NCBI RefSeq assembly: GCF_013387495.1
Contig: NZ_JABZEE010000049.1
Location: forward strand, 62,001-126,000
DNA: 64,000 nucleotides
Source: Streptomyces sp. PKU-EA00015
GTDB lineage: Bacteria > Actinomycetota > Actinomycetes > Streptomycetales > Streptomycetaceae
Direction: 5' to 3'
Part shown: one piece after another, positions 1,538 to 14,566 of the stretch
Numbering within the stretch: the stretch's first letter is position 1
How the letters are laid out: the number at the start of each line of letters is the position of its first letter
Notes under the pieces: generated by a model
What the model was told of the DNA's origin: nothing
Seen by the model: only the letters and a program-made list of their open reading frames with translations
Databases searched by the model: none
Made by a program: the position numbers and the translations under genes

Positions 1538-2854
1538 ATGACTGTCGACCGCCGGGACCTGGCCGTACGAGCGGCCGTGGAACAGGGACTTCTCACCGAG
1601 GACCAGCCCGTCACCGCCCTCCTCGACGTGGCGGGTATCCGCTCCTCGGTGGCGGCGCTGCGGGCCGCCTTCGCCGCCGTCACCGACGCGCCGGTGCTGC
1701 ACGCCTTCGCCGTCAAGGCCGCCCCGCTGGTGCCGGTCCTCGCCCTCCTGCACGCCGAGGGCATCGGCGCGGAGGTCGCGAGCCCCGGCGAACTGGCGCT
1801 CGCGCGGGCCGCCGGCCTGCCCGCCGCTCTGACCGTGCTCGACTCCCCCGCCAAGACCGGCGCCGAGCTGCGCGAGGCCCTCGCCCTGGGGATCGCGGTC
1901 AACGCGGACAACTTCCAGGAACTGTGGCGTATCGACGCCCTGATGGCCGAGGGACCGAGCGCCTCGCCGCTGGGCCTGCGCGTCAATCCGCAGGTCGGCG
2001 GCGGCTCGATCGGGGCGCTGTCGACGGCCACCCCGACCTCCAAGTTCGGCTTCGCGCTCGCCGACGCGGGGGCCAGGGAAGCGGTCGTGCGCGCCTACGC
2101 GGAACGCCCCTGGCTGACCCGTCTGCACACCCACTCCGGTTCCCAGGGAATGCCGCTCGCGCGCATGGCTCAGGGCGTCCTCGCGGTCTACGAGCTCGCC
2201 GAGGAGATCAACGCGGCGGCCGGCCGGCGGCAGGTCGACACGATCGACATCGGCGGCGGCCTCCCGGTCAACTTCGCCTCCGACGAGCACACGCCGACCT
2301 TCGCCGCGTACGCCCGGCAGCTGAAGGAGCACGTGCCGGGCCTCTTCGACGGGCGCTACGGACTGGTCACCGAGTTCGGCCGCTCCCTCATCGCCAAGCA
2401 CGGCCTGGTCCTCGCCCGTGTCGAGTACGCGAAGTCCGCCGGCGGCCGTCCCATCGCCGTCACCCACGCCGGCGTCCAGGTCGCCACCCGCACCGTCTAC
2501 GACCCGGTGTCCTGGCCGCTGAGGATCGCCGCGTACGACGCCAAGGGCCTGCCCAAGCCGGGGCCGGACGTGGCGCAGGACGTCGCGGGACCGGCCTGCT
2601 TCGCCGGCGACCTGCTCGCCGAGAAGCGGGCCCTGCCGCTGCTGGAGCAGGGCGACGTGATCGCGGCGCTCGACACGGGCGCGTACTACTTCTCCAGCCA
2701 CTACGGCTACAACAGCCTGCCGAGGACGCCCGTGCACGGCTTCACCACCGCACCGGACGGCGGGGTGCGGTTCGTCACCGTCCGGGAGGCCCAGAGCATG
2801 GAGGCGATCGTCGCGGAGTCCGGAGGAGCTCAGCGGGACGCCCTGCTCGGCTGA
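1538..2854 (+). CDS. LysA-like PLP-dependent decarboxylase (fold type III)
   Basis: A 438-residue alanine-racemase-fold decarboxylase, closest to diaminopimelate decarboxylase. The PLP lysine is in HAFAVKA (K60). The glycine-rich phosphate loop is IDIGGGLPVNF, and the C-terminal barrel holds EFGRSL and ALDTGAYYFSSHYGYN. The substrate-binding CES motif that marks true diaminopimelate decarboxylases is replaced by CFA (GPACFAGD), so the substrate may differ. ATG at 1538 is chosen because upstream codons overlap the hutU promoter; no strong ribosome site is visible. It is not next to other lysine genes. It could be a diaminopimelate, ornithine or other amino-acid decarboxylase, or part of a small-molecule pathway. 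Family assignment is firm, reaction uncertain. Confidence 0.85.
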   Translation: MTVDRRDLAVRAAVEQGLLTEDQPVTALLDVAGIRSSVAALRAAFAAVTDAPVLHAFAVKAAPLVPVLALLHAEGIGAEVASPGELALARAAGLPAALTVLDSPAKTGAELREALALGIAVNADNFQELWRIDALMAEGPSASPLGLRVNPQVGGGSIGALSTATPTSKFGFALADAGAREAVVRAYAERPWLTRLHTHSGSQGMPLARMAQGVLAVYELAEEINAAAGRRQVDTIDIGGGLPVNFASDEHTPTFAAYARQLKEHVPGLFDGRYGLVTEFGRSLIAKHGLVLARVEYAKSAGGRPIAVTHAGVQVATRTVYDPVSWPLRIAAYDAKGLPKPGPDVAQDVAGPACFAGDLLAEKRALPLLEQGDVIAALDTGAYYFSSHYGYNSLPRTPVHGFTTAPDGGVRFVTVREAQSMEAIVAESGGAQRDALLG

Positions 2855-2933
2855 GCCCCGCCGCCCGGCCCTGCTCGGCCGACGCGCCCGTGGCGCGAAG
2901 GCGAGCGCCGGACACCGGTGGTTCCATGGACCC

Positions 2934-3398
2934 ATGGCTACCAGCACTGTCGTCGTCGAGCGCCTGATCCTCGCGGCGCCCGGAGCCGTGTGGCAGGCCC
3001 TGACCGACATCCAGGGCTGGGAGCGCATCCTCGGCGGCGTGGAGCGGATCGAGGTGCTCTCGTCCGGCGGTTTCGGCGTGGGCACCCGGTGGCGCGAGAC
3101 CCGGCGGATGCTCGGCAAACAGGCCACGGAGGAGATGTACGTGACGGCCTGCGAGCCGCCCGAGCGCTATGTCGTGGAGGCGGACTCGCAAGGCACCCAC
3201 TACGTCTCGGAGTTCAGGCTGCTGCCGGCGGGCCAGGACGCGACGACGGTCCGCATGACCTTCGGTGCCAAGCCGCCCGGCGGCTTCACAGGCCTGCTCG
3301 CGAAGGTCCTCGGCGGGCTCGGTGCCAGAGCGGTGCGCAACGCGGTCACCAGGGACCTGGACGACGTCGCCGCCGCTGTCGAGCGCCGGGGCGACTGA
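2934..3398 (+). CDS. SRPBCC / polyketide-cyclase-like protein
   Basis: A 154-residue protein of the START-like SRPBCC superfamily, which binds hydrophobic ligands in a deep cavity. It shows the typical layout: an N-terminal beta strand (STVVVERLILA), the helix-grip segment with VWQALTDIQGWERIL, curved strands, and a long C-terminal helix (FTGLLAKVLGG to DLDDVAAAVERR). No signal peptide or membrane segment is present, so it is cytoplasmic. It follows the LysA-like gene by 79 bases and precedes an APC permease, but the gaps do not prove an operon. The ligand cannot be told from sequence. Confidence 0.85.
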   Translation: MATSTVVVERLILAAPGAVWQALTDIQGWERILGGVERIEVLSSGGFGVGTRWRETRRMLGKQATEEMYVTACEPPERYVVEADSQGTHYVSEFRLLPAGQDATTVRMTFGAKPPGGFTGLLAKVLGGLGARAVRNAVTRDLDDVAAAVERRGD

Positions 3399-3501
3399 CC
3401 GGACACCCGCGTCCCCCGGTCCGCCGCACGGGTAGCGGCACGCATCACGCACAGCACGCAGGGGCAGAAACCTTCCCATCCGACTCCGGGAGAGGTGTTC
3501 C

Positions 3502-4875
3502 ATGGCCACATCCGCAGCGTCCGAGGCACCAGCGGCACAGGGCGGGCTCAAACGGGTGATCGGGCCCAGGCTGCTGATCCTCTTCGTGATCGGCGACATC
3601 CTCGGCACGGGCATCTACGCCACCACCGGCGCAGTGGCGGGCAAGGTCGGCGGGGCACTGTGGCTGCCGTTCGCGATCGGCTTCGTGGTCGCCATCCTGA
3701 CGGCAGCGTCGTACGTCGAACTGGTCGGCAAGTACCCGAAGGCCGCCGGGGCGGCGCTGTACACCCAGAAGGCCTTCAAGGTCCCCTTCCTGACCTTCAT
3801 CATCGGGTTCATGGTGATGTGCTCCGGCCTGTCCTCGGCGAGCGCGGCCGCCCGTGCGTTCGGCGGGGACTACTTCCAGGAGTTCACCGACGCCGTCCCG
3901 TCGACGCTCATCTCGATCGTCTTCATCCTCGCCCTCGCCGGACTGGCGCTGCGGGGCGTGTCGGAGTCCGTGAAGACCAATATGGTGCTGACCGTCGTCG
4001 AACTCACCGGTCTCGTGGTGATCCTGGGCATCGGCGCCTGGGCGGTGGTGACCGGCGACGGGGAGCCGTCCCGGCTGGGTGAGTTCGAGGCGTCCGGCAC
4101 CGGGTACGCGCTGATCACGAGCGTCCTCGGGGCGACGGCGCTGGGCTTCTTCGCGTTCGTCGGATTCGAGGACTCGGTCAACATGGCCGAGGAGACCCGT
4201 GATCCGGTCCGCACGTTCCCCCGCGCGATCTTCACCGGTGTCGCCGTCACCGGCACCATCTACGTGCTCGTCGCGCTGGTGTCCTCGCTGCTCGTCGACT
4301 ACCGCACGCTGGAGAAGTCGAGCGGCCCGCTGCTGGAGGTGGTCAAGGCGGGAGGCGTCGCCTTCCCGCCGAAACTCTTCGCGCTGATCGCCTTGTTCGC
4401 GGTCACCAACTCGGCCCTGATCAACATCATGATGGCCTCCCGGCTCTGCTACGGGCTGGCCAACGAGAAGGTGCTGCCGCGCGGCATGGGAAAGGTCCTC
4501 CGCAGGCGCCGCACCCCCGTCACCGGCATCGTGTTCGTGGCGCTGCTGGCCATCGGGCTGGTGTCGACGGGCGAGATCGCCGGGCTCGGCGACACCACCG
4601 CGTTCCTGCTGCTGTGCGTCTTCACCGTGGTCAACGTGGCCGTCCTGGTGCTGCGCAAGGACCGCGTGGAGCACCGGCACTTCCGTACGCCGACGATCCT
4701 GCCGGTCATCGGCGCCACCACCGCGCTGATCCTCGCCAGCCCGCTGGCCGACCGGGCGGCGGACGTCTACATCAGGGCCGGTGTGCTGGTCGGCATCGGC
4801 ATCGTGCTGTGGGGCGTCAACAAACTGGTGATGAAGCTGCGCCACGAGGAGGTGGCAGGCACCGGCAACGGATAG
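3502..4875 (+). CDS. APC superfamily amino acid permease
   Basis: A 457-residue integral membrane protein with about twelve hydrophobic segments. It begins with the APC signature region LLILFVIGDILGTGIYATTG, whose helix 1 holds the GTGIY substrate-binding break. SVNMAEETRDPVRTFPRAI is the conserved cytoplasmic loop of amino acid/polyamine/organocation carriers. It should import an amino acid or amine by proton symport. ATG at 3502 follows a GGGAGAGG ribosome site. Neighbours (hutU, a LysA-like decarboxylase) suggest amino acid use, but substrate specificity cannot be read from the sequence. Confidence 0.92.
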   Translation: MATSAASEAPAAQGGLKRVIGPRLLILFVIGDILGTGIYATTGAVAGKVGGALWLPFAIGFVVAILTAASYVELVGKYPKAAGAALYTQKAFKVPFLTFIIGFMVMCSGLSSASAAARAFGGDYFQEFTDAVPSTLISIVFILALAGLALRGVSESVKTNMVLTVVELTGLVVILGIGAWAVVTGDGEPSRLGEFEASGTGYALITSVLGATALGFFAFVGFEDSVNMAEETRDPVRTFPRAIFTGVAVTGTIYVLVALVSSLLVDYRTLEKSSGPLLEVVKAGGVAFPPKLFALIALFAVTNSALINIMMASRLCYGLANEKVLPRGMGKVLRRRRTPVTGIVFVALLAIGLVSTGEIAGLGDTTAFLLLCVFTVVNVAVLVLRKDRVEHRHFRTPTILPVIGATTALILASPLADRAADVYIRAGVLVGIGIVLWGVNKLVMKLRHEEVAGTGNG

Positions 4876-5020
4876 GGCTCCCGGCCGGGCGGACTCTACC
4901 GGGCGCGCGCATGTTCCGATGGAAAATGCCAGAACTCACCCGAACGGGCGCCACGTTGCGTAACCTCTCCGTCACTGCCGCGCCGGTGCGCGGCACACCG
5001 AGGCGGGGAGGGGAGTCCGC

Positions 5021-5422
5021 GTGCCCGGAATCGACGAGTGTCTGCTGCAAGCCATGGTGGTGCCCGGGGCCCGGGGAGCCTCCATCGTGGACTGGACCAG
5101 CGGCCTCGCCCTCGGCACCGTCGGGGAGACCCCAGGCGGCGACCACGAGGCCACCGCGGCCGAGACGGCCGAACTGGCCAGGATGGCCGCCGAGTACCCG
5201 TCCTTCGCAACCGACGAGACCCCGGCACCCGACGGCGCCAAGGGGTTACCCGTCGAGGACCTCATCGTCACCACCCGCACCGGATACCACGTGATGCGGT
5301 TCGTGGAGACCACGTTCGACAGCAGTGTGTTCCTGCATCTGTGGCTCGACCGGGACACCGGCAATCTGGCGCTCGCCCGGCTGCGCCTCGCGGACCTCGC
5401 AGAGCGGCTGGTCCTCGGATGA
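5021..5422 (+). CDS. Roadblock/LC7 protein 1, with TTA codon
   Basis: A 133-residue cytoplasmic protein with a Roadblock/LC7 fold, the family that acts as regulator or scaffold for small Ras-like GTPases. The core GASIVDWTSGLALGTVG is nearly the same as GAALVDYTSGMALGTIG in the fourth gene of the cluster. The C-terminal half (EDLIVTTRTGYHVMRF, then FLHLWLDRDTGNLALARLRL) also aligns with it, so the two are paralogues; this copy has an insertion of about 20 residues between the halves. GTG start at 5021 after a GGGGAGGGGAG ribosome site. Codon 76 is TTA (5246-5248), read in Streptomyces only by the bldA tRNA. It overlaps the next gene by ATGA. Confidence 0.85.
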   Translation: MPGIDECLLQAMVVPGARGASIVDWTSGLALGTVGETPGGDHEATAAETAELARMAAEYPSFATDETPAPDGAKGLPVEDLIVTTRTGYHVMRFVETTFDSSVFLHLWLDRDTGNLALARLRLADLAERLVLG

Positions 5423-6192
5423 CCGCAGCGGCCACGACCGTCTCCCCCATGCTCGTGCGGCTGGCCGAGGAGCGCGCCACCGGCGTCCTGGTCCGTGACC
5501 ACGGGGCCCTCTACCTCGCCGACGGCCAGGTGGTGCACGCCGAGAGCCCGGCAGCACCCGGCCTCGACGTGCTGCTGACCGCCGGCGGCCAACTGGCACC
5601 CGAAGGCTGGCAGGAGGCGGTGGCCAGGGCCGGCGCACGCCGCGAAGTGGCACGCTTCCTCGTCGACAGCGGCCAGGTCACCGGCGGCGCACTGGAGATC
5701 TGCCATCTCGGTGCCCTCCACGACGCCGCCTTCTTCGCCCTGGCCCCCGGCAGCGGACCGACCCGCTTCCGCTACGGCGTCGCGCACTGGATCGGCACCG
5801 TGCGCCCCGTGCCCGCTGCGGCCGTCGTCCGGGAGGCGCGCCGGCGGCGCGGGCTGCTCGACTCCGTGTGGCCGCACCCCGAGGTGGACACCGCACCGCT
5901 GCGCCGCCGTCCGCCGGGCCACGGCGCCACGGCCACCCGCAGACAGCGGGCGCTGCTGGAGCTCGCCGACGGTGTGCGCACCCCGCCGGCGATCGCCCGG
6001 GCCGTCGGCCGTCCCGCATTCAACACCCTGATCGAGGTACGGCGGATGGCCGCCGCGGGGCTCGTCGAGACACCGTCGGAGCCCGCCGCGCCCGCCCCCG
6101 CCTCGCTGCCCGACTGGGTCGCCGGATTCCCCGCCGACCCGGACATCGCCCTGTTACGCCGGCTCCGCGACGCTCTGGAGGCAAGCCTGTGA
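5419..6192 (+). CDS. PATAN/DUF4388-like protein with winged-helix C-terminus, TTA codon
   Basis: A 257-residue soluble protein whose start overlaps the stop of Roadblock protein 1, implying translational coupling. The N-terminal part (residues 10-110: LAEERATGVLVRDHGALYLADGQVVHAES, shortened here) resembles the PATAN/DUF4388 domain found in bacterial signalling proteins with GTPases and receiver domains. Residues about 175-225 (LLELADGVRTPPAIARAVGR, then EVRRMAAAGLVE) read as a winged helix. It could be a transcriptional effector or a protein-binding adaptor. Codon 246 is TTA (6154-6156). No GTPase, kinase or receiver gene lies beside it, unlike the Streptomyces conservons. Domain naming is by pattern, so moderately sure. 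Confidence 0.65.
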   Translation: MTAAATTVSPMLVRLAEERATGVLVRDHGALYLADGQVVHAESPAAPGLDVLLTAGGQLAPEGWQEAVARAGARREVARFLVDSGQVTGGALEICHLGALHDAAFFALAPGSGPTRFRYGVAHWIGTVRPVPAAAVVREARRRRGLLDSVWPHPEVDTAPLRRRPPGHGATATRRQRALLELADGVRTPPAIARAVGRPAFNTLIEVRRMAAAGLVETPSEPAAPAPASLPDWVAGFPADPDIALLRRLRDALEASL

Positions 6193-6271
6193 CCCACCGC
6201 ACGACCCACCGGGCCCTGCGCACACCGTCATGAGGCGTGCTTTGAGGCTGCGCGCCGAGAGGAGACAGCTC

Positions 6272-6658
6272 ATGACGGCCGAGACCGAGGTGCTCGGTGA
6301 ACTCAGAAGACTGCGCGCCCGTGTGCCGCAGCTGACCGGTGTGCTCGCCGCGAGCGTCGACGGCCTGGTGCTGGCGACGGACACCCCGGACGCGGAGGGC
6401 GTCGCAGCGCTCACCGCCGCCGCGCTCGGGGTCGCGCTGCGGCTGACCGAGGCGACCGGACAGGGCGGCTTCAAGGAACTGCTCGTACGGGGCGAGGCGG
6501 GCTACATCGCCACCTATGCGGCCGGCTCGTCGGCCGTGCTCACCGTACTGGCCGAGCCGCGCATCAACGTGGGCCGGCTCCATCTCGAGGCCCGCCGGGC
6601 CTGTGTCCGTGTCGGGGCGCTGGTGGACGCCGCCCTCGAACGACCGCAGGAGGCCTGA
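6272..6658 (+). CDS. Roadblock/LC7 protein 2
   Basis: A 128-residue Roadblock/LC7 protein of the actinobacterial type: LRARVPQLTGVLAASVDGLVLATDTPD, shortened here, then an alternating helix/strand segment ending GSSAVLTVLAEPRINVGRLHLEARR. This pattern is close to CvnB-like proteins, which bind a Ras-like GTPase (CvnD). ATG at 6272 is chosen because GAGAGGAGAC lies just upstream; an in-frame ATG at 6230 lacks such a site. It sits third in the cluster, 79 bases after the winged-helix gene. No CvnA-, CvnC- or CvnD-like neighbour is present. Confidence 0.85.
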   Translation: MTAETEVLGELRRLRARVPQLTGVLAASVDGLVLATDTPDAEGVAALTAAALGVALRLTEATGQGGFKELLVRGEAGYIATYAAGSSAVLTVLAEPRINVGRLHLEARRACVRVGALVDAALERPQEA

Positions 6659-6769
6659 CACATGCCCGCCGCCCCCGCAGACCCACCCGCACGAAACCGC
6701 ACCGGAACGACCCGCAACACAACCACCGCAAGAACGACAGCCAACCGACGGAAGGAACGTGCGCCTGCC

Positions 6770-7141
6770 ATGGCCAACACCGAGACCGCGCTCAAGGAAG
6801 CCACCACCATCGAAGGTGCCATCGGCGCCGCGCTCGTCGACTACACCAGCGGCATGGCGCTGGGCACCATCGGCGGCGGCAAGGACCTCGACCTCACGGT
6901 CGCCGCCGCCGGGAACACCGACGTGGTCCGCGCCAAGGTCCGCACCATGGAGCACCTGGGCCTCAAGGACGAGATCGAGGACATCCTGATCACCCTCGGC
7001 TCGCAGTACCACCTGATCCGCCTGATGAAGGGCCGCGGCTCCAACGGCCTGTTCCTGTACCTGGCCTTGGACAAGGAGCGCGCGAACCTGGCGATGGCCC
7101 GACACCAGTTGAAGAGGATCGAGGCCGAGCTGGAGGTCTGA
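6770..7141 (+). CDS. Roadblock/LC7 protein 3
   Basis: A 123-residue Roadblock/LC7-like protein, last in the cluster and the better-preserved paralogue of the first gene. It has ATTIEGAIGAALVDYTSG at the N-terminus, a helix around VVRAKVRTMEHLGLKDEIED, strands ILITLGSQYHLIRLM and LFLYLALDKERANLAMAR. ATG at 6770 has GAAGGAA 12 bases upstream; an in-frame ATG at 6662 would add a low-complexity Pro/Thr/Arg head and is less likely. The gene ends 12 bases from the convergent membrane-protein gene. Partner GTPase unknown. Confidence 0.82.
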   Translation: MANTETALKEATTIEGAIGAALVDYTSGMALGTIGGGKDLDLTVAAAGNTDVVRAKVRTMEHLGLKDEIEDILITLGSQYHLIRLMKGRGSNGLFLYLALDKERANLAMARHQLKRIEAELEV

Positions 7142-7153
7142 CCCCGGCCCCGC

Positions 7154-7717
7154 TCAGCTCCGGCGCCGCGCCCCTCCGGGCGCGGCGTCACCGGCGGCGA
7201 TCCCGGTCGTACAAAAGCCCTTGACGGGCTTGCCGACCGCTCCCCCGGCCAGCCAGTCCGTACGCATCCACAGCAGCGTCTCCTCCGTGCGCTCGCGCCG
7301 GCCCAGCCACACGGCCTTGAGCCACAGGCCCGCTCCCGCGCCGGCGAGCAACGCCCCTCCCGCAGCCGGCAGCACGAGCGAGCTCGCGACGGCGGCGAGG
7401 AAGGCGAGCAGCAGCCACCAGCGGCGCGACCGGCGCACCACCTTCATCGTCACCCGGCGGTCCTGGAGCACGTCGTGCCGTCCGGCACGGGTCGCGCAGT
7501 CCGCGAGACGCGTGTACCGACGGCGCCGCACGAGAGCGACCGCGGCAGCGGTGACAAGGAACAGTACGGCCCCCGCCGGCACCCCGATGCGACGTCCGGT
7601 GAGCCCCGGCAGCAGCAGCCCGGTCCCGGCGGCGAGGACGCCGAGCCACCACAGGGGCGCCGCGCCCGCCCGTACCGTCACCGCCACCCGCGCCAACGAC
7701 TGCGCTCCGCGCCCCAC
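7154..7717 (-). CDS. Small four-segment membrane protein, unknown function
   Basis: A 187-residue membrane protein with two pairs of hydrophobic helices (about residues 15-55 and 85-125) separated by a basic loop (VRRRRYTRLADCATRAGRH). It ends in a soluble tail with LLWMRTDWLAGG. No family recognised. The GTG at 7717 is preferred because GGAAGGGAA lies just upstream; longer versions would run into the RpiR gene. It is the same strand as the RpiR regulator and begins about 90 bases after its stop. It converges with the Roadblock cluster. Confidence 0.7.
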   Translation of the reverse strand: MGRGAQSLARVAVTVRAGAAPLWWLGVLAAGTGLLLPGLTGRRIGVPAGAVLFLVTAAAVALVRRRRYTRLADCATRAGRHDVLQDRRVTMKVVRRSRRWWLLLAFLAAVASSLVLPAAGGALLAGAGAGLWLKAVWLGRRERTEETLLWMRTDWLAGGAVGKPVKGFCTTGIAAGDAAPGGARRRS

Positions 7718-7805
7718 TGCCCGTTCCCTTCCGCCGAGTTCCGTTGCCGCGGGAGGGTAGCGGCCGTTTCTGAGCGGTGCATGAGAATCGCGAAGGGGCG
7801 CCTGC

Positions 7806-8642
7806 CTAGTCCACGAACAGGCCGCGCTCCGCCGCCTGCGCGTCGAAGTCCTCGAGCCGCGCCTGGGCGTCCGGGAGGTCGTCGCACATGGCCTCCAGCA
7901 GCACACGCCCGAGCAGCATCGGGGCGCACGCCGTGTCGAAGGCGAGGCCCGTGCCCACGGCGGCGGGGATCAGCAGATCGCTGTGGGCCGCTACCGGCGC
8001 GAACGCCGAGTCCGCGACGGTCACCACCTTCAGTCCGGCCGCGCGCGCGTACTCCAGCGCCGCCACGACCTCCTTGGGGTGGCGCGGCAGCGCGAAGCAC
8101 AGGAGCGCGCTCGCCCCGGCCCGCCGCGCGGAGTCGATGCGGTCGGCGAGCATCGAGCCGCCCTCGTCGAGGAGGCGGACGTCGGGGTGGACCTTGGCGG
8201 CGAAGTACGCGAAGCCGCGGGCCTGCGAGGACGCGGCGCGCAGCCCGAGCACCGGCAGCGGACGGGAGGCGGCGAGCAGCCGCCCGGCGCGCTCCACGAG
8301 GGACGGGTCGGCGAGCATCTCGGCCAGCTGCCGCAGATTCTCGATCTCGGCCTGGACCGCCTGCTGGTACTCGTTGTTCGTGTCCTCGTGCGCGACGGCC
8401 TCCGGCGGCACGACCTCGCGCAGGTGCCTGCGCAGCGCCGGGTAGCCGTCGAAGCCGAGGGCGACGGCGAAGCGGGTGACCGACGGCTGGCTGACGCCCG
8501 CGAGTTCGGCGAGCTCCACGCTGGACAGGAACGGCACGTCCCCGGCCCGGCGGACCATGCTGTGCGCGATGCGCCGCTGGGTCGGGGTGAGGCGGTGCCC
8601 CTCGAAGAGCAGCTGCAGCCGCGCCGCAGGGCTGTCGTTCAT
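7806..8642 (-). CDS. MurR/RpiR family transcriptional regulator
   Basis: A 278-residue regulator. The N-terminal RpiR helix-turn-helix (about residues 1-75) contains LTPTQRRIAHSMVRRAGDVP, then VELAELAGVSQPSVTRFAVALGF. The C-terminal SIS sugar-isomerase domain (about residues 105-260) holds VLGLRAASSQARGFAYFAAK and ALLCFALPRHPKEVVAALEYA. These proteins sense phosphosugars or other metabolites and usually repress catabolic genes. ATG at 8642 follows GAGGGGGA; a TTG further up is less likely. The gene is divergent from pqqA with 268 bases between; a palindrome there may be its own operator. Target genes are unknown. Confidence 0.92.
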   Translation of the reverse strand: MNDSPAARLQLLFEGHRLTPTQRRIAHSMVRRAGDVPFLSSVELAELAGVSQPSVTRFAVALGFDGYPALRRHLREVVPPEAVAHEDTNNEYQQAVQAEIENLRQLAEMLADPSLVERAGRLLAASRPLPVLGLRAASSQARGFAYFAAKVHPDVRLLDEGGSMLADRIDSARRAGASALLCFALPRHPKEVVAALEYARAAGLKVVTVADSAFAPVAAHSDLLIPAAVGTGLAFDTACAPMLLGRVLLEAMCDDLPDAQARLEDFDAQAAERGLFVD

Positions 8643-8686
8643 GCCATCCCCCTCGTCCGGCCCCAACTATTCAGCCACCGACAACT

Positions 8687-8704
8687 CTGCATGACCATAT
8701 GCAG
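8687..8704. promoter_or_regulatory. Palindrome between rpiR-type gene and pqqA
   Basis: CTGCAT (8687-8692) and ATGCAG (8699-8704) form a perfect 6-bp inverted repeat with a 6-base spacer, upstream of the RpiR gene on the minus strand. About 20 bases nearer that gene lies ACTATTCA (8668-8675), which shares CTATTCA with the hutU operator arms. The site may be an autoregulatory operator. No promoter for pqqA is obvious on the plus strand. Confidence 0.4.
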
Positions 8705-8910
8705 CTGCCCGGCGGAGGGGCAAGAGCGGCCCTGACGGGTGAATCCGAGTGGTCGGCCGGGTGCATTGCGTCAAGACTCCGTAACAGAAGGTCGCGGCGC
8801 GCTGCCTCTCGACACTGCGCGGCGGGCGGCTGTGGCGTGTCCCGGTCGTCGGGGGCGCCGGGGCTGCCGTCGGAGCAGGTCCCGACCCACCGCAAACGGA
8901 AGGCAGCACC

Positions 8911-9051
8911 ATGAACGAAGCCGAGGCACTCACGGAGCAGGCCGAGGAGACCGCCGTGGAGACGACGGACGACTCCGCCTGGGAGACCCCGGGGCACACG
9001 GTCGTCGAGACCGCGCGGGAAGTCACCGGCCAGTACAGCGACTCCGTCTAG
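8911..9051 (+). CDS. pqqA: PqqA-like precursor peptide with altered cross-link motif
   Basis: A 46-residue peptide, found by reading the sequence upstream of pqqC. PqqA is the ribosomal precursor of the cofactor PQQ; PqqE joins a Glu and a Tyr held in an E-x3-Y motif, often EVTxY. This peptide has WETP in the middle, as other PqqA do, and near its end EVTGQY (E37 to Y42), so Glu and Tyr are four residues apart rather than three. ATG at 8911 follows GGAAGG. The N-terminus is longer and more acidic than usual. With pqqE missing beyond a stub, the peptide is probably no longer processed, or is used differently. Confidence 0.75.
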   Translation: MNEAEALTEQAEETAVETTDDSAWETPGHTVVETAREVTGQYSDSV

Positions 9052-9071
9052 CCGGCGGGGATGGTGATCGA

Positions 9072-9800
9072 GTGGTGACCACGCTGCTCACCCCGGTCGG
9101 CGACGCCCCCTGGAGCACCGCGGAGTTCGAGTCACGGCTCCGCGCGGTGCCCGAGGAGCGGTACCACGACCGCCACGCCTTCAGCATCCGCATGCACAGC
9201 GGCGCTCTCAGCCGGGCCGAGTTGCGCTGCTGGATCGCCAACCGCTTCCACTACCAGCGCCACATCCCCGTCAAGGACGCCCTGATCACCGCCAAGCTTC
9301 CCACCTGCGCACTGCGCCGCATGTGGCTGCGCCGCATTCAGGACCACGACGGCCTGGACGACGGCGAGGGCGGCATCGAGCAGTGGCTGCGACTGGGCGA
9401 GGCGGCCGGCATCGACCGCGAGACGCTGCTGCGCGGCGACACCGTGCTGCCGGGCGTACGGCTCGCCGTCGACGGCTACGTGAACTTCTGCCGCCTGCGC
9501 CCGCCCCTCGAAGCCGTCGCCGCCTCGCTGACCGAACTGGCCGCCCCGGACCTGATGCGCACCCGCATCGACGCCTTCGAACGCCACTACCCGTGGATCG
9601 AACCGGACGGCCTCGCCTGCTTCCGCTCCCGCGTCTCCCAGGGCGGGCGGGACAGTGCCGAGGCGCTCGGGCTGGTCCTCTCCTGGGCGTGCACCCGCGA
9701 CGACCAGGAACGTGCGGTGGCGGCGCTCCGCTTCAAGTGCGACGTCCTGTGGGCGCTCCTCGACGCCGTTGCCCACGCTCACTGCCCGGAGGGGTCGTGA
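9072..9800 (+). CDS. pqqC: Pyrroloquinoline-quinone synthase PqqC
   Basis: A 242-residue helical-bundle oxidase of the PqqC/TenA-like family that performs the last, cofactorless ring closure and oxidation in PQQ synthesis. It aligns along its length with the Klebsiella enzyme as I recall it: WIANRFHYQ, IPVKDA, RIQDHDG, GIEQWLRLGEA, VLPGVRLAVDGYVNF, SLTEL, HYPWI, FRSR and FKCDVLWALLDA. His92, Glu155, Arg165, Arg187 and Lys222 match the Klebsiella active-site residues His84, Glu147, Arg157, Arg179 and Lys214. His154 is Met162 and Tyr175 is Cys183 here. Tandem GTG codons at 9072 and 9075 are possible starts. It overlaps pqqD by GTGA. Confidence 0.92.
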   Translation: MVTTLLTPVGDAPWSTAEFESRLRAVPEERYHDRHAFSIRMHSGALSRAELRCWIANRFHYQRHIPVKDALITAKLPTCALRRMWLRRIQDHDGLDDGEGGIEQWLRLGEAAGIDRETLLRGDTVLPGVRLAVDGYVNFCRLRPPLEAVAASLTELAAPDLMRTRIDAFERHYPWIEPDGLACFRSRVSQGGRDSAEALGLVLSWACTRDDQERAVAALRFKCDVLWALLDAVAHAHCPEGS

Positions 9801-10069
9801 AGGCGTCGCACGCGGACGGCTGGCAGCCGGCCCTGGCCCCGGTCATCGTGCGCCGCCACGACCAGGTCCGGGGCACGGACCTGCTGGTCCTCCCCGAACG
9901 TGTCGTCGTCCTCACCGGCAGAGCCGCTGTCGTCGTCGAGCTGTGCGACGGGACCCGCACCGTGCGGGCGATAGTCGAGGAGCTGACCGGACGCTTCCCG
10001 GGCGCTCCGGTCGCCACGGACGTCCCGCCGTTCCTCGACCGTCTGCGGCAGGAGGGCTGGCTGCAATGA
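9797..10069 (+). CDS. pqqD: PQQ biosynthesis peptide chaperone PqqD
   Basis: A 90-residue RiPP recognition element that binds the PqqA peptide and presents it to the radical-SAM enzyme PqqE. Visible family features: an N-terminal strand PVIVRRHDQV, the VLPERVVVLTGRAAVVVELCDG winged-helix core (shortened here), TVRAIVEELTGRF, and the C-terminal FLDRLRQEGWL helix. GTG at 9797 overlaps the pqqC stop, and the pqqD stop overlaps an ATG that opens the pqqE stub, so the locus kept its translational coupling. Its usual partner PqqE is not present as a complete gene here. Confidence 0.93.
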   Translation: MKASHADGWQPALAPVIVRRHDQVRGTDLLVLPERVVVLTGRAAVVVELCDGTRTVRAIVEELTGRFPGAPVATDVPPFLDRLRQEGWLQ

Positions 10070-10128
10070 CGTCCGGCGCACCCGGCCGCCCGCTCCGGTG
10101 CCCGCGGACTCACGTGGCGGTCGCGTGA
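10066..10128 (+). pseudogene. pqqE: pqqE start remnant, 20 codons
   Basis: ATG at 10066 overlaps the pqqD stop (ATGA), exactly where pqqE begins in pqqCDE operons. The frame reads MTSGAPGRPLRCPRTHVAVA and stops at 10126-10128. No CxxxCxxC radical-SAM cluster motif follows in any frame I read up to 10665. I infer a truncated pqqE; the assignment rests on position and coupling, since 20 residues are too few for similarity. Confidence 0.5.
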
Positions 10129-10665
10129 GCTGACCACCGATCAGTGGACGGACGGCGTACCAGGAAGGCGAGTTCGGCGGACACCTTCGACGCCGTCGTC
10201 GAACGGGCGTCTGCCCCCGCCCCACAGGGGTGCCGGCCCCACTGACGCGGTCGTGGCCCCGGCCTGGTCGTCGCCTGGCTCGGCATCGTCGGCGTGAACG
10301 CCGCCCACGCGGCGCACCTGTGGCCCTCCCTGGCAGCGGGCTTCACGGCGCCGCAAGTCCGACTGGGAGGAATAGGCCGGGCCGTTGAAGAATGTCGCGG
10401 GGACCGCCGCACCCCCGGCGAGCCGGGGGGCGGGACGACGGCGGTCCCCGCGAAGGACACGGACCGGGTCAGGGCCGGTCTCCGCGTCCGTGGCGTCCAG
10501 GGGTCCGGGAGCCGCTCCGGAAGTCCTTGACGCCGCTGGCTGCCGGCCGGGTTACCTGCCCGGTCCCCCTGCCGACATCCACCAATGTGCCGGACGCGTG
10601 TTAAGCGGGTGCTGCGCGAACGTGTCGCCCTCGTACCGTTTTCACGAAAGGACTTCCGCCGCCGG
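10129..10665. other. Gene-free region after the pqq remnant
   Basis: This 537-base stretch between the pqqE stub and the convergent cystathionine beta-synthase gene holds no recognisable gene. A short segment (about 10262-10370) reads VVAWLGIVGVNAAHAAHLWP, a membrane-like or degraded sequence I cannot name. A strong nested hairpin lies at 10396-10452. No pqqB-like metallo-hydrolase fragment (HxHxDH) was seen. It may be decayed remains of the rest of the pqq operon. Confidence 0.55.
10396..10452. terminator. Nested perfect hairpin, probable bidirectional terminator
   Basis: A 14-bp perfect outer stem (10396-10409 with 10439-10452) encloses a second 8-bp stem, CCCCCGGC (10412-10419) and GCCGGGGG (10422-10429), with a 2-base loop. 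It has no U-tract on either strand, common for Streptomyces. It lies between the pqq remnant and the cbs gene, which converge. Confidence 0.65.
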
Positions 10666-12054
10666 TTACTTGGCGTCGTTCGCGAGGAAGGCGAGCAGGT
10701 CCTGACGGCTCACCACACCCGTCGGCTTGCCCTCGACCAGCACGATCGCCGCGTCCGCGAAGTCGCCGAGCACCGTCATCAGGTCGGCCACGGGCTCGCC
10801 GGAGCCCACCTGGGGCAGCGGGGCGGACATGTGCTTCTCCAGCGGGTCGTGCAGCGAGGCGCGCTGGGTGAACAGGGCGTCGAGCAGCTCGCGCTCGACC
10901 ACCGAGCCGATGACCTCGGCGGCCATCACGTCCGGGTGGCCGGCGCCGGGCTTGACGATCGGCATCTGCGAGACGCCGTACTCGCGCAGCACCTCGATGG
11001 CCTGGCCGACGGTCTCCTCCGGATGCATGTGCACCAGGCTGGGGATGGCGCCGCCCTCCTTGTGGCGCAGCACGTCCCCCACGTTCGCGGAGCCCGTCTC
11101 CTCCAGGAAGCCGTAGTCGGCCATCCACTCGTCGTTGAAGATCTTGGAGAGGTAGCCGCGGCCGCTGTCGGGAAGCAGGACGACCACGATGTCGTCCGGG
11201 CCGAGCCGCTCGGCGACGCGCAGGGCGGCGACGACCGCCATGCCGCAGGACCCGCCGACGAGCAGGCCCTCCTCCTTGGCGAGGCGGCGGGTCATCTGGA
11301 AGGAGTCCTTGTCGGACACGGCGACGATCTCGTCGGTGACGGTCCGGTCGTAGGCGCTCGGCCAGAAGTCCTCGCCGACGCCCTCGACGAGGTAGGGCCG
11401 CCCGGAGCCGCCGGAGTACACCGAGCCCTCGGGGTCGGCGCCGATGATCTTCACACGGCCGTCGCTCACCTCCTTGAGGTAACGGCCGGTGCCCGAGATC
11501 GTGCCGCCGGTGCCGACGCCCGCGACGAAGTGGGTGATCCTCCCCTCCGTCTGCTCCCACAGCTCCGGACCGGTGGTCTCGTAGTGCGAGCGCGGGTTGT
11601 TCGGGTTGGAGTACTGGTCCGGCTTCCAGGCGCCGGGGGTCTCCCGCACAAGGCGGTCGGAGACGTTGTAGTACGAGTCCGGGTGCTCGGGGTCCACCGC
11701 GGTGGGGCACACGACGACCTCGGCACCGTACGCGCGCAGCACGTTGATCTTGTCCGTGGACACCTTGTCCGGGCAGACGAAGATGCACTTGTAGCCCTTC
11801 TGCTGGGCCACGATCGCGAGTCCGACACCGGTGTTCCCGCTGGTCGGCTCGACGATGGTGCCACCGGGCTTCAGCTCGCCGCTCTGCTCGGCCGCCTCGA
11901 TCATCCGCAGGGCGATGCGGTCCTTCACCGACCCGCCGGGGTTGAAGTACTCGACCTTGGCGAGGACGGTCGCCGAAATGCCTGCGGTCACGTTGTTCAG
12001 CTTCACCAGCGGGGTGTCGCCGACGAGGCTGATCATCGAGTTGTGGATACGCAC
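10666..12054 (-). CDS. cbs: Cystathionine beta-synthase
   Basis: A 462-residue cytoplasmic PLP enzyme that condenses serine and homocysteine to cystathionine (reverse transsulfuration). The fold-II catalytic domain (about residues 1-330) shows the PLP lysine in GGSVKDRIAL (K44), the substrate loop PTSGNTGVG, and the phosphate loop GVGTGGTISGTG. The C-terminal part (about 345-462) carries two CBS repeats, e.g. AIEVLREYGVSQMPIVK and DAAIVLVEGKPTGVVSRQDL. GTG at 12054 with GGAGA just upstream is the best start. It is divergent from the SGNH gene. A cysteine synthase with CBS domains is the only alternative, and less likely. Confidence 0.93.
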   Translation of the reverse strand: MRIHNSMISLVGDTPLVKLNNVTAGISATVLAKVEYFNPGGSVKDRIALRMIEAAEQSGELKPGGTIVEPTSGNTGVGLAIVAQQKGYKCIFVCPDKVSTDKINVLRAYGAEVVVCPTAVDPEHPDSYYNVSDRLVRETPGAWKPDQYSNPNNPRSHYETTGPELWEQTEGRITHFVAGVGTGGTISGTGRYLKEVSDGRVKIIGADPEGSVYSGGSGRPYLVEGVGEDFWPSAYDRTVTDEIVAVSDKDSFQMTRRLAKEEGLLVGGSCGMAVVAALRVAERLGPDDIVVVLLPDSGRGYLSKIFNDEWMADYGFLEETGSANVGDVLRHKEGGAIPSLVHMHPEETVGQAIEVLREYGVSQMPIVKPGAGHPDVMAAEVIGSVVERELLDALFTQRASLHDPLEKHMSAPLPQVGSGEPVADLMTVLGDFADAAIVLVEGKPTGVVSRQDLLAFLANDAK

Positions 12055-12188
12055 AGTGTTCTCCGGGGTCTCCGTAATGGTGCGGCCAGCGTATGCCGGA
12101 TGGGCGCTGGATTGGGCGACACCGGCTACGGGGCAGTTAGCTCTAGTACGGCAAGACGGCGGCCTGCGAGGGCCGCGAGGAGGTGGCT

Positions 12189-13208
12189 GTGTCGAGGGCG
12201 AGGGTGGCCAGGCGCATCGCGGCGGGTGCCGCGTACGGCGGAGGCGGTATCGGCGTGATCGGTGCGGCGGCGGTGGGCGTGCTGCTGGCGGAGGTCCAGC
12301 TGGCGAAGCGCTCGGTCGGCGGGGGCACGGCACCCATCCCCCCACGGGGCAACGGCCTGTACGGGATGGCGTTCGGCCGGGACGACCCGCTGTATCTCGC
12401 GGTCCTCGGCGACTCCACGGCGGCCGGCCAGGGCGTGCGCAGGGCCGGCCAGACGCCGGGGGCGCTGCTGGCCTCCGGGCTCGCGGCCGTGGCCGAGCGA
12501 CCGGTCGAGGTCCGCAACATCGCGCTGCCGGGCGCCCAGTCGGACGACCTGGAGCGGCAGGTGACCCAGCTCCTCGCGGACCGCACCCGGACCCCCGACG
12601 TGTGCGTGATCATGATCGGCGCGAACGACGTCACGCACCGGATGCCGCCGACGCAGTCGGTGCGCTACCTGGCGTCGGCGGTGCGCCGGCTGCGGACGGC
12701 CGGGGCGGAGGTGGTCGTCGGCACGTGCCCGGACCTGGGCACGATCGAGCCGGTGTACCAGCCCCTGCGCTGGCTGGCCCGCCGGGTGTCGCGGCAGCTG
12801 GCGGCCGCGCAGACCATCGTGGTGGTGGAGCAGGGCGGGCGCACGGTTTCGCTGGGCGACCTGCTCGGCCCCGAGTTCGCGGCGAACCCGCGCGAGATGT
12901 TCGGCGCGGACAACTACCACCCCTCCGCCGAGGGGTACGCCACGGCGGCGATGGCGATGCTGCCGACCCTGTGCGCGGCCCTCGGCCTGTGGCCGGAGAC
13001 CGACGCGCTGGACGTGGACCGCGACGAGGACATGCTGCCTGTGGCGCGTGCGGCGGCGACCGCCGCCTCGGAGGCGGGCACCGAGGTCACGGGCGCACGG
13101 GCGCCCTGGGCGCTGCTCAAGCACCGCAGGCGCCGCCGTCTCCCGGCGGCGGAGGTGCCCCCGACCCCGGAGAGGGAGCCCGCGGAGGCCCGCGTGGAGA
13201 CGGACTGA
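12189..13208 (+). CDS. SGNH/GDSL hydrolase, membrane-anchored
   Basis: A 339-residue SGNH-fold esterase. Block I is AVLGDSTAAGQG with the catalytic Ser. Block III is IMIGANDVTHR with the oxyanion Asn. Block V is NYHPSAEGY with the catalytic His. Residues about 10-35 form one hydrophobic segment (GIGVIGAAAVGVLLAEVQ), so the enzyme is probably tethered outside the membrane. The basic C-terminus (LLKHRRRRRL) is unusual. GTG at 12189 follows GAGGAGG with five bases between; GTG at 12183 overlaps that site. Substrate unknown; lipid or cell-wall ester hydrolysis is plausible. Confidence 0.88.
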   Translation: MSRARVARRIAAGAAYGGGGIGVIGAAAVGVLLAEVQLAKRSVGGGTAPIPPRGNGLYGMAFGRDDPLYLAVLGDSTAAGQGVRRAGQTPGALLASGLAAVAERPVEVRNIALPGAQSDDLERQVTQLLADRTRTPDVCVIMIGANDVTHRMPPTQSVRYLASAVRRLRTAGAEVVVGTCPDLGTIEPVYQPLRWLARRVSRQLAAAQTIVVVEQGGRTVSLGDLLGPEFAANPREMFGADNYHPSAEGYATAAMAMLPTLCAALGLWPETDALDVDRDEDMLPVARAAATAASEAGTEVTGARAPWALLKHRRRRRLPAAEVPPTPEREPAEARVETD

Positions 13209-13228
13209 CGGCCGTACACTTTTCACTG

Positions 13229-13242
13229 AACAAGCGCTTAGA
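13229..13242. promoter_or_regulatory. KstR2-like TetR operator upstream of thiolase
   Basis: AACAAGCGCTTAGA lies about 104 bases before the thiolase start. It fits the recalled KstR2 consensus AnCAAGnnCTTGnT except at two positions on the right side, and its core AAGCGCTT is a perfect palindrome. TetR-type regulators of acyl-CoA breakdown use such sites. No TetR gene is adjacent, so the regulator would act in trans. Confidence 0.4.
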
Positions 13243-13345
13243 AAAGAGTCCCTCATCACACGGCCCGTACGGTGACCAGGCCGGTACGTACGGGTAACTT
13301 CCCAGTCAGTCAGCCTGACCGTCCTTCTTTTCCCATGGAGCCGTG

Positions 13346-14566
13346 ATGCCCGAAGCCGTGATCGTCTCTGCCGCCCGTTCGCCCATCGGCCGGGCCTTCA
13401 AGGGCTCCCTGAAGGAGCTGCGGCCCGACGACCTGACCGCCACGATCATCCAGGCCGCGCTCGCCAAGGTGCCCGAGCTGGACCCCCGCGACATCGACGA
13501 CCTGATGCTCGGCTGCGGCCTGCCCGGTGGCGAGCAGGGCCACAACCTGGGCCGTATCGTCGCCGTGCGGATGGGCATGGACCACCTCCCCGGCTGCACC
13601 GTCACCCGCTACTGCTCCTCGTCGCTGCAGACCTCGCGCATGGCCCTGCACGCCATCAAGGCGGGCGAGGGCGACGTCTTCATCTCGGCGGGCGTCGAGA
13701 TGGTCTCCCGCTTCGTCAAGGGCAACTCCGACACCCTGCCGGACACGCACAACCCGTTCTTCGCCGAGGCCGAGGCACGCACCGCTGCCGTCGCCGAGAC
13801 CGAGGGCACCACCTGGCACGACCCGCGCGAGGACGGCCTCGTCCCCGACGCGTACATCGCCATGGGGCAGACCGCCGAGAACCTGGCCCGCTGGAAGGGC
13901 GTGACCCGCCAGGAGATGGACGAGTTCGGCGTGCGCTCGCAGAACCTGGCCGAGGAAGCCATCAAGAACGGCTTCTGGGAGCGGGAGATCACCCCGGTGA
14001 CGACCCCCGACGGCACGGTCGTCAGCACGGACGACGGCCCGCGCGCGGGCGTCACCCTGGAGGGCGTCCAGGGCCTCAAGCCCGTCTTCCGCCCCGACGG
14101 CATGGTCACCGCGGCCAACTGCTGCCCGCTCAACGACGGTGCCGCCGCGCTCGTCATCATGAGCGACACCAAGGCCCGCGAGCTCGGCCTGACCCCGCTC
14201 GCCCGCATAGTCTCCACCGGCGTCTCGGGCCTCTCGCCCGAGATCATGGGCCTCGGCCCGGTCGAGGCGTCGAAGCAGGCTCTGCAGCGCGCGGGCCTGA
14301 CCTCCTCCGACATCGACCTGGTCGAGATCAACGAGGCGTTCGCGGCGCAGGTCATCCCGTCCTACCGCGACCTCGGCTTCGACCTGGACAAGGTCAACGT
14401 CAACGGCGGCGCGATCGCGGTCGGCCACCCCTTCGGCATGACCGGCGCGCGGATCACCGGCACGCTGATCAACAGCCTCCAGTTCCACGACAAGCAGTTC
14501 GGCCTGGAGACGATGTGCGTGGGCGGCGGCCAGGGCATGGCGATGGTCATCGAGCGGCTGAGCTGA
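13346..14566 (+). CDS. Acetyl-CoA C-acyltransferase (thiolase)
   Basis: A 406-residue thiolase that cleaves 3-ketoacyl-CoA with CoA, or condenses two acetyl-CoA. All family hallmarks are present: the nucleophile Cys90 in [10 protein letters not shown], the NEAFA motif ([13 protein letters not shown]), the catalytic His in [12 protein letters not shown], and the second Cys in [11 protein letters not shown]. Length is normal for the family. ATG at 13346 is five bases after GGAG; a GTG directly before it is in the same frame. It is a single gene with a possible acyl-CoA-responsive operator upstream. Beta-oxidation is more likely than acetoacetyl-CoA synthesis, but chain-length preference is not readable. 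Confidence 0.93.

Follow-up and report, generated by a model that had tools for sequence, protein, structure and literature searches.

The window analysed here, a stretch of 64,000 nucleotides from Streptomyces sp. PKU-EA00015, very probably holds a dead PQQ locus, from which the likely client dehydrogenase, PqqB and PqqE have been deleted and in which PqqA and PqqC are changed at key residues. A preliminary description made from the sequence had proposed, as one of two readings, that the locus is in decay and still shows its former coupling signals; the deletions, the remnants of pqqE and the substitutions in PqqA and PqqC support this.

Anatomy of the pqq locus

The locus lies on a contig of 129 kb in a genome assembly of 7.7 Mb, consisting of 159 contigs and rated 99.99% complete. 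The relatives used for comparison in the following list, L005 (Streptomyces sp. TRM64462) and L010 (Streptomyces sp. A3M-1-3), are described below.

7806–8666, minus strand: left flank, presumably a MurR/RpiR-type regulator gene; syntenic in L010, 85% identity over 282 aa
8729–8801, plus strand: remnant of the 5' end/leader of a GSDH-type gene; 87.7% identity to L005 2497–2568, E 2e-18
8807–8860, plus strand: 3' remnant of the same GSDH-type gene; 85% identity to L005 3649–3702, E 8e-11
8911–9051, plus strand: pqqA, open frame of 46 aa; 65% identity to L005 PqqA
9052–9074, plus strand: pqqB scar, the 3' spacer of pqqA fused to the last pqqB codons; window 9056/9058 corresponds to L005 4030/4912
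9075–9800, plus strand: pqqC, full frame; Cys182 replaces Tyr (Tyr175 of K. pneumoniae)
9797–10069, plus strand: pqqD, full frame; four-base overlap with pqqC
10066–10210, plus strand: pqqE pseudogene with the true start codon, at least two internal deletions (three MAFFT gaps) and the 3' part lost; pieces at 10066–10088, ~10101–10179 and 10180–10210
10261–10312, plus strand: small-ORF remnant; 86.5% identity to L010 10543–10594, E 1.5e-10, where the ORF is flanked by pqqE and the CBS-type gene
10395–10453, no strand: 15-bp perfect inverted repeat with a 29-nt spacer; left arm also present in L010
10666–12345, minus strand: right flank, presumably a cystathionine beta-synthase-type (CBS) gene; syntenic in L010, 89% identity over 470 aa

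The remaining set of pqqA, pqqC, pqqD and a pqqE stub, as given in the preliminary description, is borne out by the frames and by the family scores; in profile searches PqqC reached 269.6 bits against TIGR02111 (cut-off 240) and PqqD 61.8 bits against TIGR03859 (cut-off 46). The overlap coupling of pqqC and pqqD was likewise confirmed as four shared bases (9797–9800), and the ATG lying on the pqqD stop, whose frame stops at 20 codons, proved to be the real pqqE start at 10066. Neither pqqB nor a complete pqqE follows pqqD, as had been observed before, and the missing pqqB was formerly located between pqqA and pqqC (junction 9056/9058).

Compared with the PQQ operon pqqABCDE (TIGR02108, TIGR02109, TIGR02111, TIGR03859), the window keeps the order of the remaining genes, PqqC and PqqD proteins that exceed the cut-offs, a PqqA-like peptide and a pqqE ATG overlapping the pqqD stop. 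In contrast to that operon, it lacks pqqB, its pqqE is a pseudogene, the adjacent dehydrogenase gene is mostly deleted, and its PqqA and PqqC lack Tyr and Tyr175, respectively. The inverted repeat at 10395–10453 is possibly a terminator between the pqq locus and the convergent CBS-type gene, as far as its position suggests. No family was detected in an Rfam scan, no GC break was seen in the composition over 8000–12000, and none of the 43 records matched in a plasmid collection covered 80% of the query.

Intact loci in relatives

Relatives were taken from GTDB genomes, and the best 80 of 121 were kept for comparison. The closest PqqC among these 80 is that of L005 (91% identity), where a sugar-dehydrogenase (GSDH-type) gene (ORF at L005 2517–3851) is followed by pqqA, pqqB, pqqC, pqqD and pqqE. 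L005 remains the closest match because a DNA search of 395 genomes found nothing closer than 83%; many of its 263 matches were short and weak, and their tally was set aside. L010 has the same gene set as L005, which lies, as in the window, between the RpiR-type gene (left) and the CBS-type gene (right); it therefore represents the intact version of the window locus. Its DNA aligns with the window at 7806–8795 and, with 84% identity, over 10393–14564. An intact orthologous locus between the same flanks is thus present in a relative.

A pqqE match was found in 77 of the best 80 of 121 relative loci; the other three (L041, L042 and L065) stop shortly past pqqC or inside pqqD. In S. huasconensis (L078 7004–10493) the matches of pqqB, pqqE and the dehydrogenase lie in several pieces, pqqE in two, and this fragmentation is either decay or the product of frameshift errors in the assembly. 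To the left of the regulator gene, about 2.9 kb of the window (4861–7805) have no blastn match in L010, where the aligned flanks are only ~30 bases apart; from the alignment, this stretch may be either an insertion in the window or a deletion in L010.

Deletions and pqqE remnants

Relative to L005 and L010, at least five deletions have left the window with minor parts of the dehydrogenase gene, of pqqE and of an ORF downstream of it, and with almost nothing of pqqB. At joint 8801/8807 the corresponding L005 positions jump from 2568 to 3649, and about 1.08 kb, comprising most of the dehydrogenase gene, is absent from the window. A second joint (8860/8874) links L005 3702 to 3847, and a third (9056/9058) links L005 4030 to 4912, where pqqB is gone except for its last codons. 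Within pqqE the window is ~66 bases shorter than L005 at 10088–10109 (two MAFFT gaps), and ~314 bases are missing at 10179/10180. The two pieces that follow, 10109–10179 and 10180–10210, correspond to L005 6031–6103 and 6418–6449, with E-values of 4e-14 to 8e-16 and of 3e-5 to 5e-6, respectively, depending on the search size; as judged from these values, the matches are not due to chance. A stretch of 15 pqqE codons, now out of frame, encodes residues of which 14 are identical to L005 PqqE 37–51. No pqqE sequence was found past ~10210 in the alignment to L005 and L010, and a repeat search detected no long direct repeats at the deletion joints.

It had been considered beforehand that relatives might carry a complete pqqE and that the window might represent an assembly gap. 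The first part holds, as a complete pqqE starts in relatives from the ATG equivalent to 10066; the second does not, as the window is continuous sequence. A single gap or misjoin would be insufficient, because there are several separate deletions as well as missense changes in pqqA and pqqC. That an assembly or sequencing artefact conceals an intact locus is thus scarcely credible: the genome is indeed a draft of 159 contigs, but the separate joints lie inside one contig of 129 kb with syntenic flanks on both sides, the replacement of Tyr by Gln in PqqA takes two base changes, and the assembly, for all its completeness, gave no PqqB match and no PqqE above the cut-off.

Substitutions in PqqA, PqqC and PqqD

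The tyrosine of PqqA is one of the two residues from which PQQ is built. The window PqqA reads ...TAREVTGQYSDSV and has Gln at the fourth residue past the core Glu (Glu-Val-Thr-Gly-Gln), so that the Glu-x3-Tyr core of functional PqqA is absent. This position is occupied by Tyr in each of the 74 other loci for which a PqqA was called (among the best 80 of 121 relatives), the calls resting on a motif that fixes the context of the Glu and not the Tyr; the motif search found the peptide in 75 of 81 loci including the window and gave no call in six. The residue preceding the Glu is Leu (71 loci) or Met (three loci) in these 74, and Arg in the window. PqqE is described as joining the Glu and Tyr of the PqqA core (PMC10906245), and Phe in place of the PqqA Tyr is reported to have abolished PQQ formation in A. 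calcoaceticus (PMC2294125).

The preliminary description had regarded pqqC and pqqD as intact. Both frames are open, and PqqD does not deviate in any column with at least 95% conservation among the other loci (counting columns with a residue in at least 90% of loci); a second comparison of PqqD gave six departing columns, of which five were gaps and one was the first column of the alignment. For pqqC, intactness holds for the frame only, because the column of K. pneumoniae Tyr175, which is invariably Tyr in the 80 other loci (best 80 of 121 relatives), is Cys182 in the window. The equivalence of Cys182 with residue 175 was obtained by alignment to K. pneumoniae PqqC chains and counted by hand. 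One of these chains, 3hlx, is presumably the Y175F mutant, judging from its sequence; a literature search pairing pqqC with Y175F gave no match. At 12 of 13 selected K. pneumoniae PqqC positions, the window agrees with the other loci. Of the PqqC columns with at least 95% conservation among the other loci, the window deviates at four, one of them in common with L005, the median across the 81 sequences being one; eight loci exceed the window, all of them less similar to it, and two equal it. PMC2294125 reports that, upon binding of the substrate, Y175 shifts by 6.9 Å to the centre of the molecule.

In all 81 PqqC sequences, Met (window residue 161, 9555–9557) takes the place of His154 of the K. 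pneumoniae enzyme, which PMC2294125 describes as moving into the active site.

Selection on pqqC and pqqD

A branch codon model was fitted with a custom script to 13 taxa, in a tree where support was weak at some nodes (47 to 58). For pqqC and pqqD together, omega on the window branch was 0.207 against a background of 0.112, a difference that was not significant (LRT 2.43); the value was below 1 (LRT 8.04). These values do not prove relaxation. For pqqC alone the window value was 0.153 (LRT against background 0.82), and for pqqD alone 0.331 (LRT 1.84), the latter not distinguishable from 1 (LRT 2.45). The intact L005 branch, used as a control, gave 0.127 for both genes together and 0.758 for pqqD alone, and the pqqD estimates are for this reason regarded as noisy.

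The omega result fits a recent loss, in which the genes would have been functional for most of the branch, and is compatible with some remaining constraint. Another point against decay is that three frames, pqqA, pqqC and pqqD, have stayed open beside a fragmented pqqE, a pattern that retention by selection would give likewise. The agreement at 12 of 13 PqqC positions and the unchanged conserved columns of PqqD also speak against it. It is very unlikely that these three genes have been selected after the loss of PqqE and PqqB, with a Cys175 PqqC now oxidising, without a cofactor, a different small molecule or a peptide that is bound to PqqD and has Gln in its core; this retains a slight probability because omega is the main result against simple decay.

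Search for the missing genes elsewhere in the genome

The suggestion that PqqE might be encoded elsewhere was not upheld, as a profile search of the assembly gave no PqqE above the cut-off of 381 bits (best match 116 bits) and no match for PqqB was detected, whereas the same searches in control genomes were positive for both: PqqB exceeded its cut-off in nine of nine, including seven without pqqB beside pqqC, and PqqE in eight of eight. As far as gene content tells, PQQ cannot be produced from this assembly by the known route.

The 116-bit match, a radical SAM gene, was rejected as a second PqqE, being 29% identical to L010 PqqE and far under the cut-off. Among ORFs of at least 90 aa in the surrounding 3.9 kb, this gene lies, by reading, between a pentapeptide-repeat-like ORF and an epimerase-like one; the radical SAM gene and the pentapeptide-repeat ORF beside it, followed by the epimerase-like gene, were placed by reading at L001 259–1440 and 1453–2565 (G000:C105), and the pentapeptide-repeat ORF reads as fused to a 2-oxoglutarate/iron oxygenase-like domain. 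A second radical SAM match (L002) was also dismissed as PqqE, being most like MoaA with 224 bits on the part given, under the MoaA cut-off of 284, and a third match to the PqqE profile (L003) scored 23.5 bits.

The radical SAM gene bears on the other reading offered in the preliminary description, a rewired RiPP pathway in which PqqA, PqqC and PqqD would be selected for a new chemistry and another maturase would replace PqqE on the changed core. Such a pathway would agree with the open frames, the branch omega below 1, the retained coupling and most of the retained PqqC positions, and one radical SAM gene with some similarity to PqqE does exist elsewhere in the genome. However, that gene stands among neighbours that read as unrelated, the PqqA core has lost both the substrate Tyr and the preceding Leu, and PqqC has lost Tyr175; the proposal, whose positive support is confined to the open frames and the low omega, is not upheld and is considered highly improbable.

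The absence of pqqB next to pqqC was rejected as proof of death. Seven of the 80 relative loci (best 80 of 121) also have no adjacent pqqB, and the absence proves nothing by itself because these seven relatives carry pqqB above the cut-off elsewhere. The seven (L013, L021, L022, L055, L064, L067 and L071) have pqqC-D-E together with a PqqA call, and two of them, L055 and L064, come from strains that also yielded a full cluster (L018 and L015, respectively). Nor would the loss of pqqB alone prove death, because a pqqB knock-out still yields small amounts of PQQ, according to work cited in PMC2294125.

Elsewhere in the genome there is a stand-alone gene of the GSDH family (236.8 bits), which shares about 43% identity with the dehydrogenases of L005 and L010. 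Three further GSDH matches are weaker, and the Pfam PQQ repeat family gave three weak matches (22 to 26 bits). On the strength of these family matches, the remaining GSDH-family and PQQ-repeat genes may possibly be PQQ users. The strain would resemble in this respect the Gram-negative PqqU-bearing users of PQQ, as portrayed in PMC12124388, since it has no synthesis of its own and keeps GSDH-family genes; it differs in that the source deals with Gram-negative importers.

Other genomes of the genus

The list of PqqC matches was compared by eye with that of PqqE (threshold 1e-70) across 295 sampled genomes. A PqqC match was present in 67 of the 295 genomes and PqqE above the cut-off in 63; the four genomes with PqqC and without PqqE above the threshold are the window genome, G173, G257 and G285. 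In G173 (L137 5826–6536) pieces of the dehydrogenase, pqqC, pqqD and pqqE lie within about 0.7 kb of one contig, the dehydrogenase piece on the opposite strand. G285 (L138 5798–6300) has retained a complete PqqA, Tyr included, and the initial third of PqqC; the sequence after it reads like part of PqqD, although by tblastn no PqqD match was obtained in this locus. Both resemble the window in having pqq pieces joined by deletions in a genome without PqqE above the threshold, but G173 retains only pieces of its dehydrogenase, pqqC, pqqD and pqqE, and G285 keeps the PqqA Tyr while its PqqC is reduced to the first third. As G173 and G285 also hold broken remnants, breakage of pqq genes has occurred repeatedly in the genus. 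The idea of a parallel pqqB deletion in G285 was dropped, as its pqqA-pqqC order resembles that of relatives without adjacent pqqB; from this resemblance, the lack of pqqB between pqqA and pqqC in G285 is probably the native arrangement.

G257 differs from these broken loci in having a full-length PqqC (L139 5878–6645, G257:C6; 260.6 bits to TIGR02111, 52% identity) with no pqqA, pqqB, pqqD or pqqE match within 12 kb, in a genome without PqqE above the threshold. It is possible that this is an orphan PqqC with another role. By analogy, pqqC and/or pqqD of the window might have been kept for a role unrelated to PQQ, for instance as an oxidase acting on another substrate, the rest being lost. 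The intact, divergent PqqC of G257 and the omega of 0.207 speak for this, but the PqqC of the window has lost the Tyr of all 80 others and departs from conserved columns more often than the median locus, and G257 is probably a separate event because its PqqC is only 52% identical. Such a role is considered very unlikely.

Probable course of the loss

Decay of the whole locus, the preferred explanation, would have started from an ancestor with a GSDH-type sugar-dehydrogenase gene, a likely consumer of PQQ, followed by pqqA-pqqB-pqqC-pqqD-pqqE. The client dehydrogenase would have been lost first, after which the cofactor would no longer have been needed and selection would have been relaxed; deletions and missense changes could then have piled up. 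The loss was probably recent, and the frames of pqqC, pqqD and pqqA would persist because too little time has elapsed, not because they form a working mini-pathway.

The locus would thus represent a case in which a cofactor pathway and the enzyme that probably used it are dying out together, and in which the damage can be read at one place in the genome. For the genus as a whole, a match to pqqC or pqqD alone is no proof of PQQ production, as four of the 67 genomes with a PqqC match in the 295-genome sample have no PqqE above the threshold.
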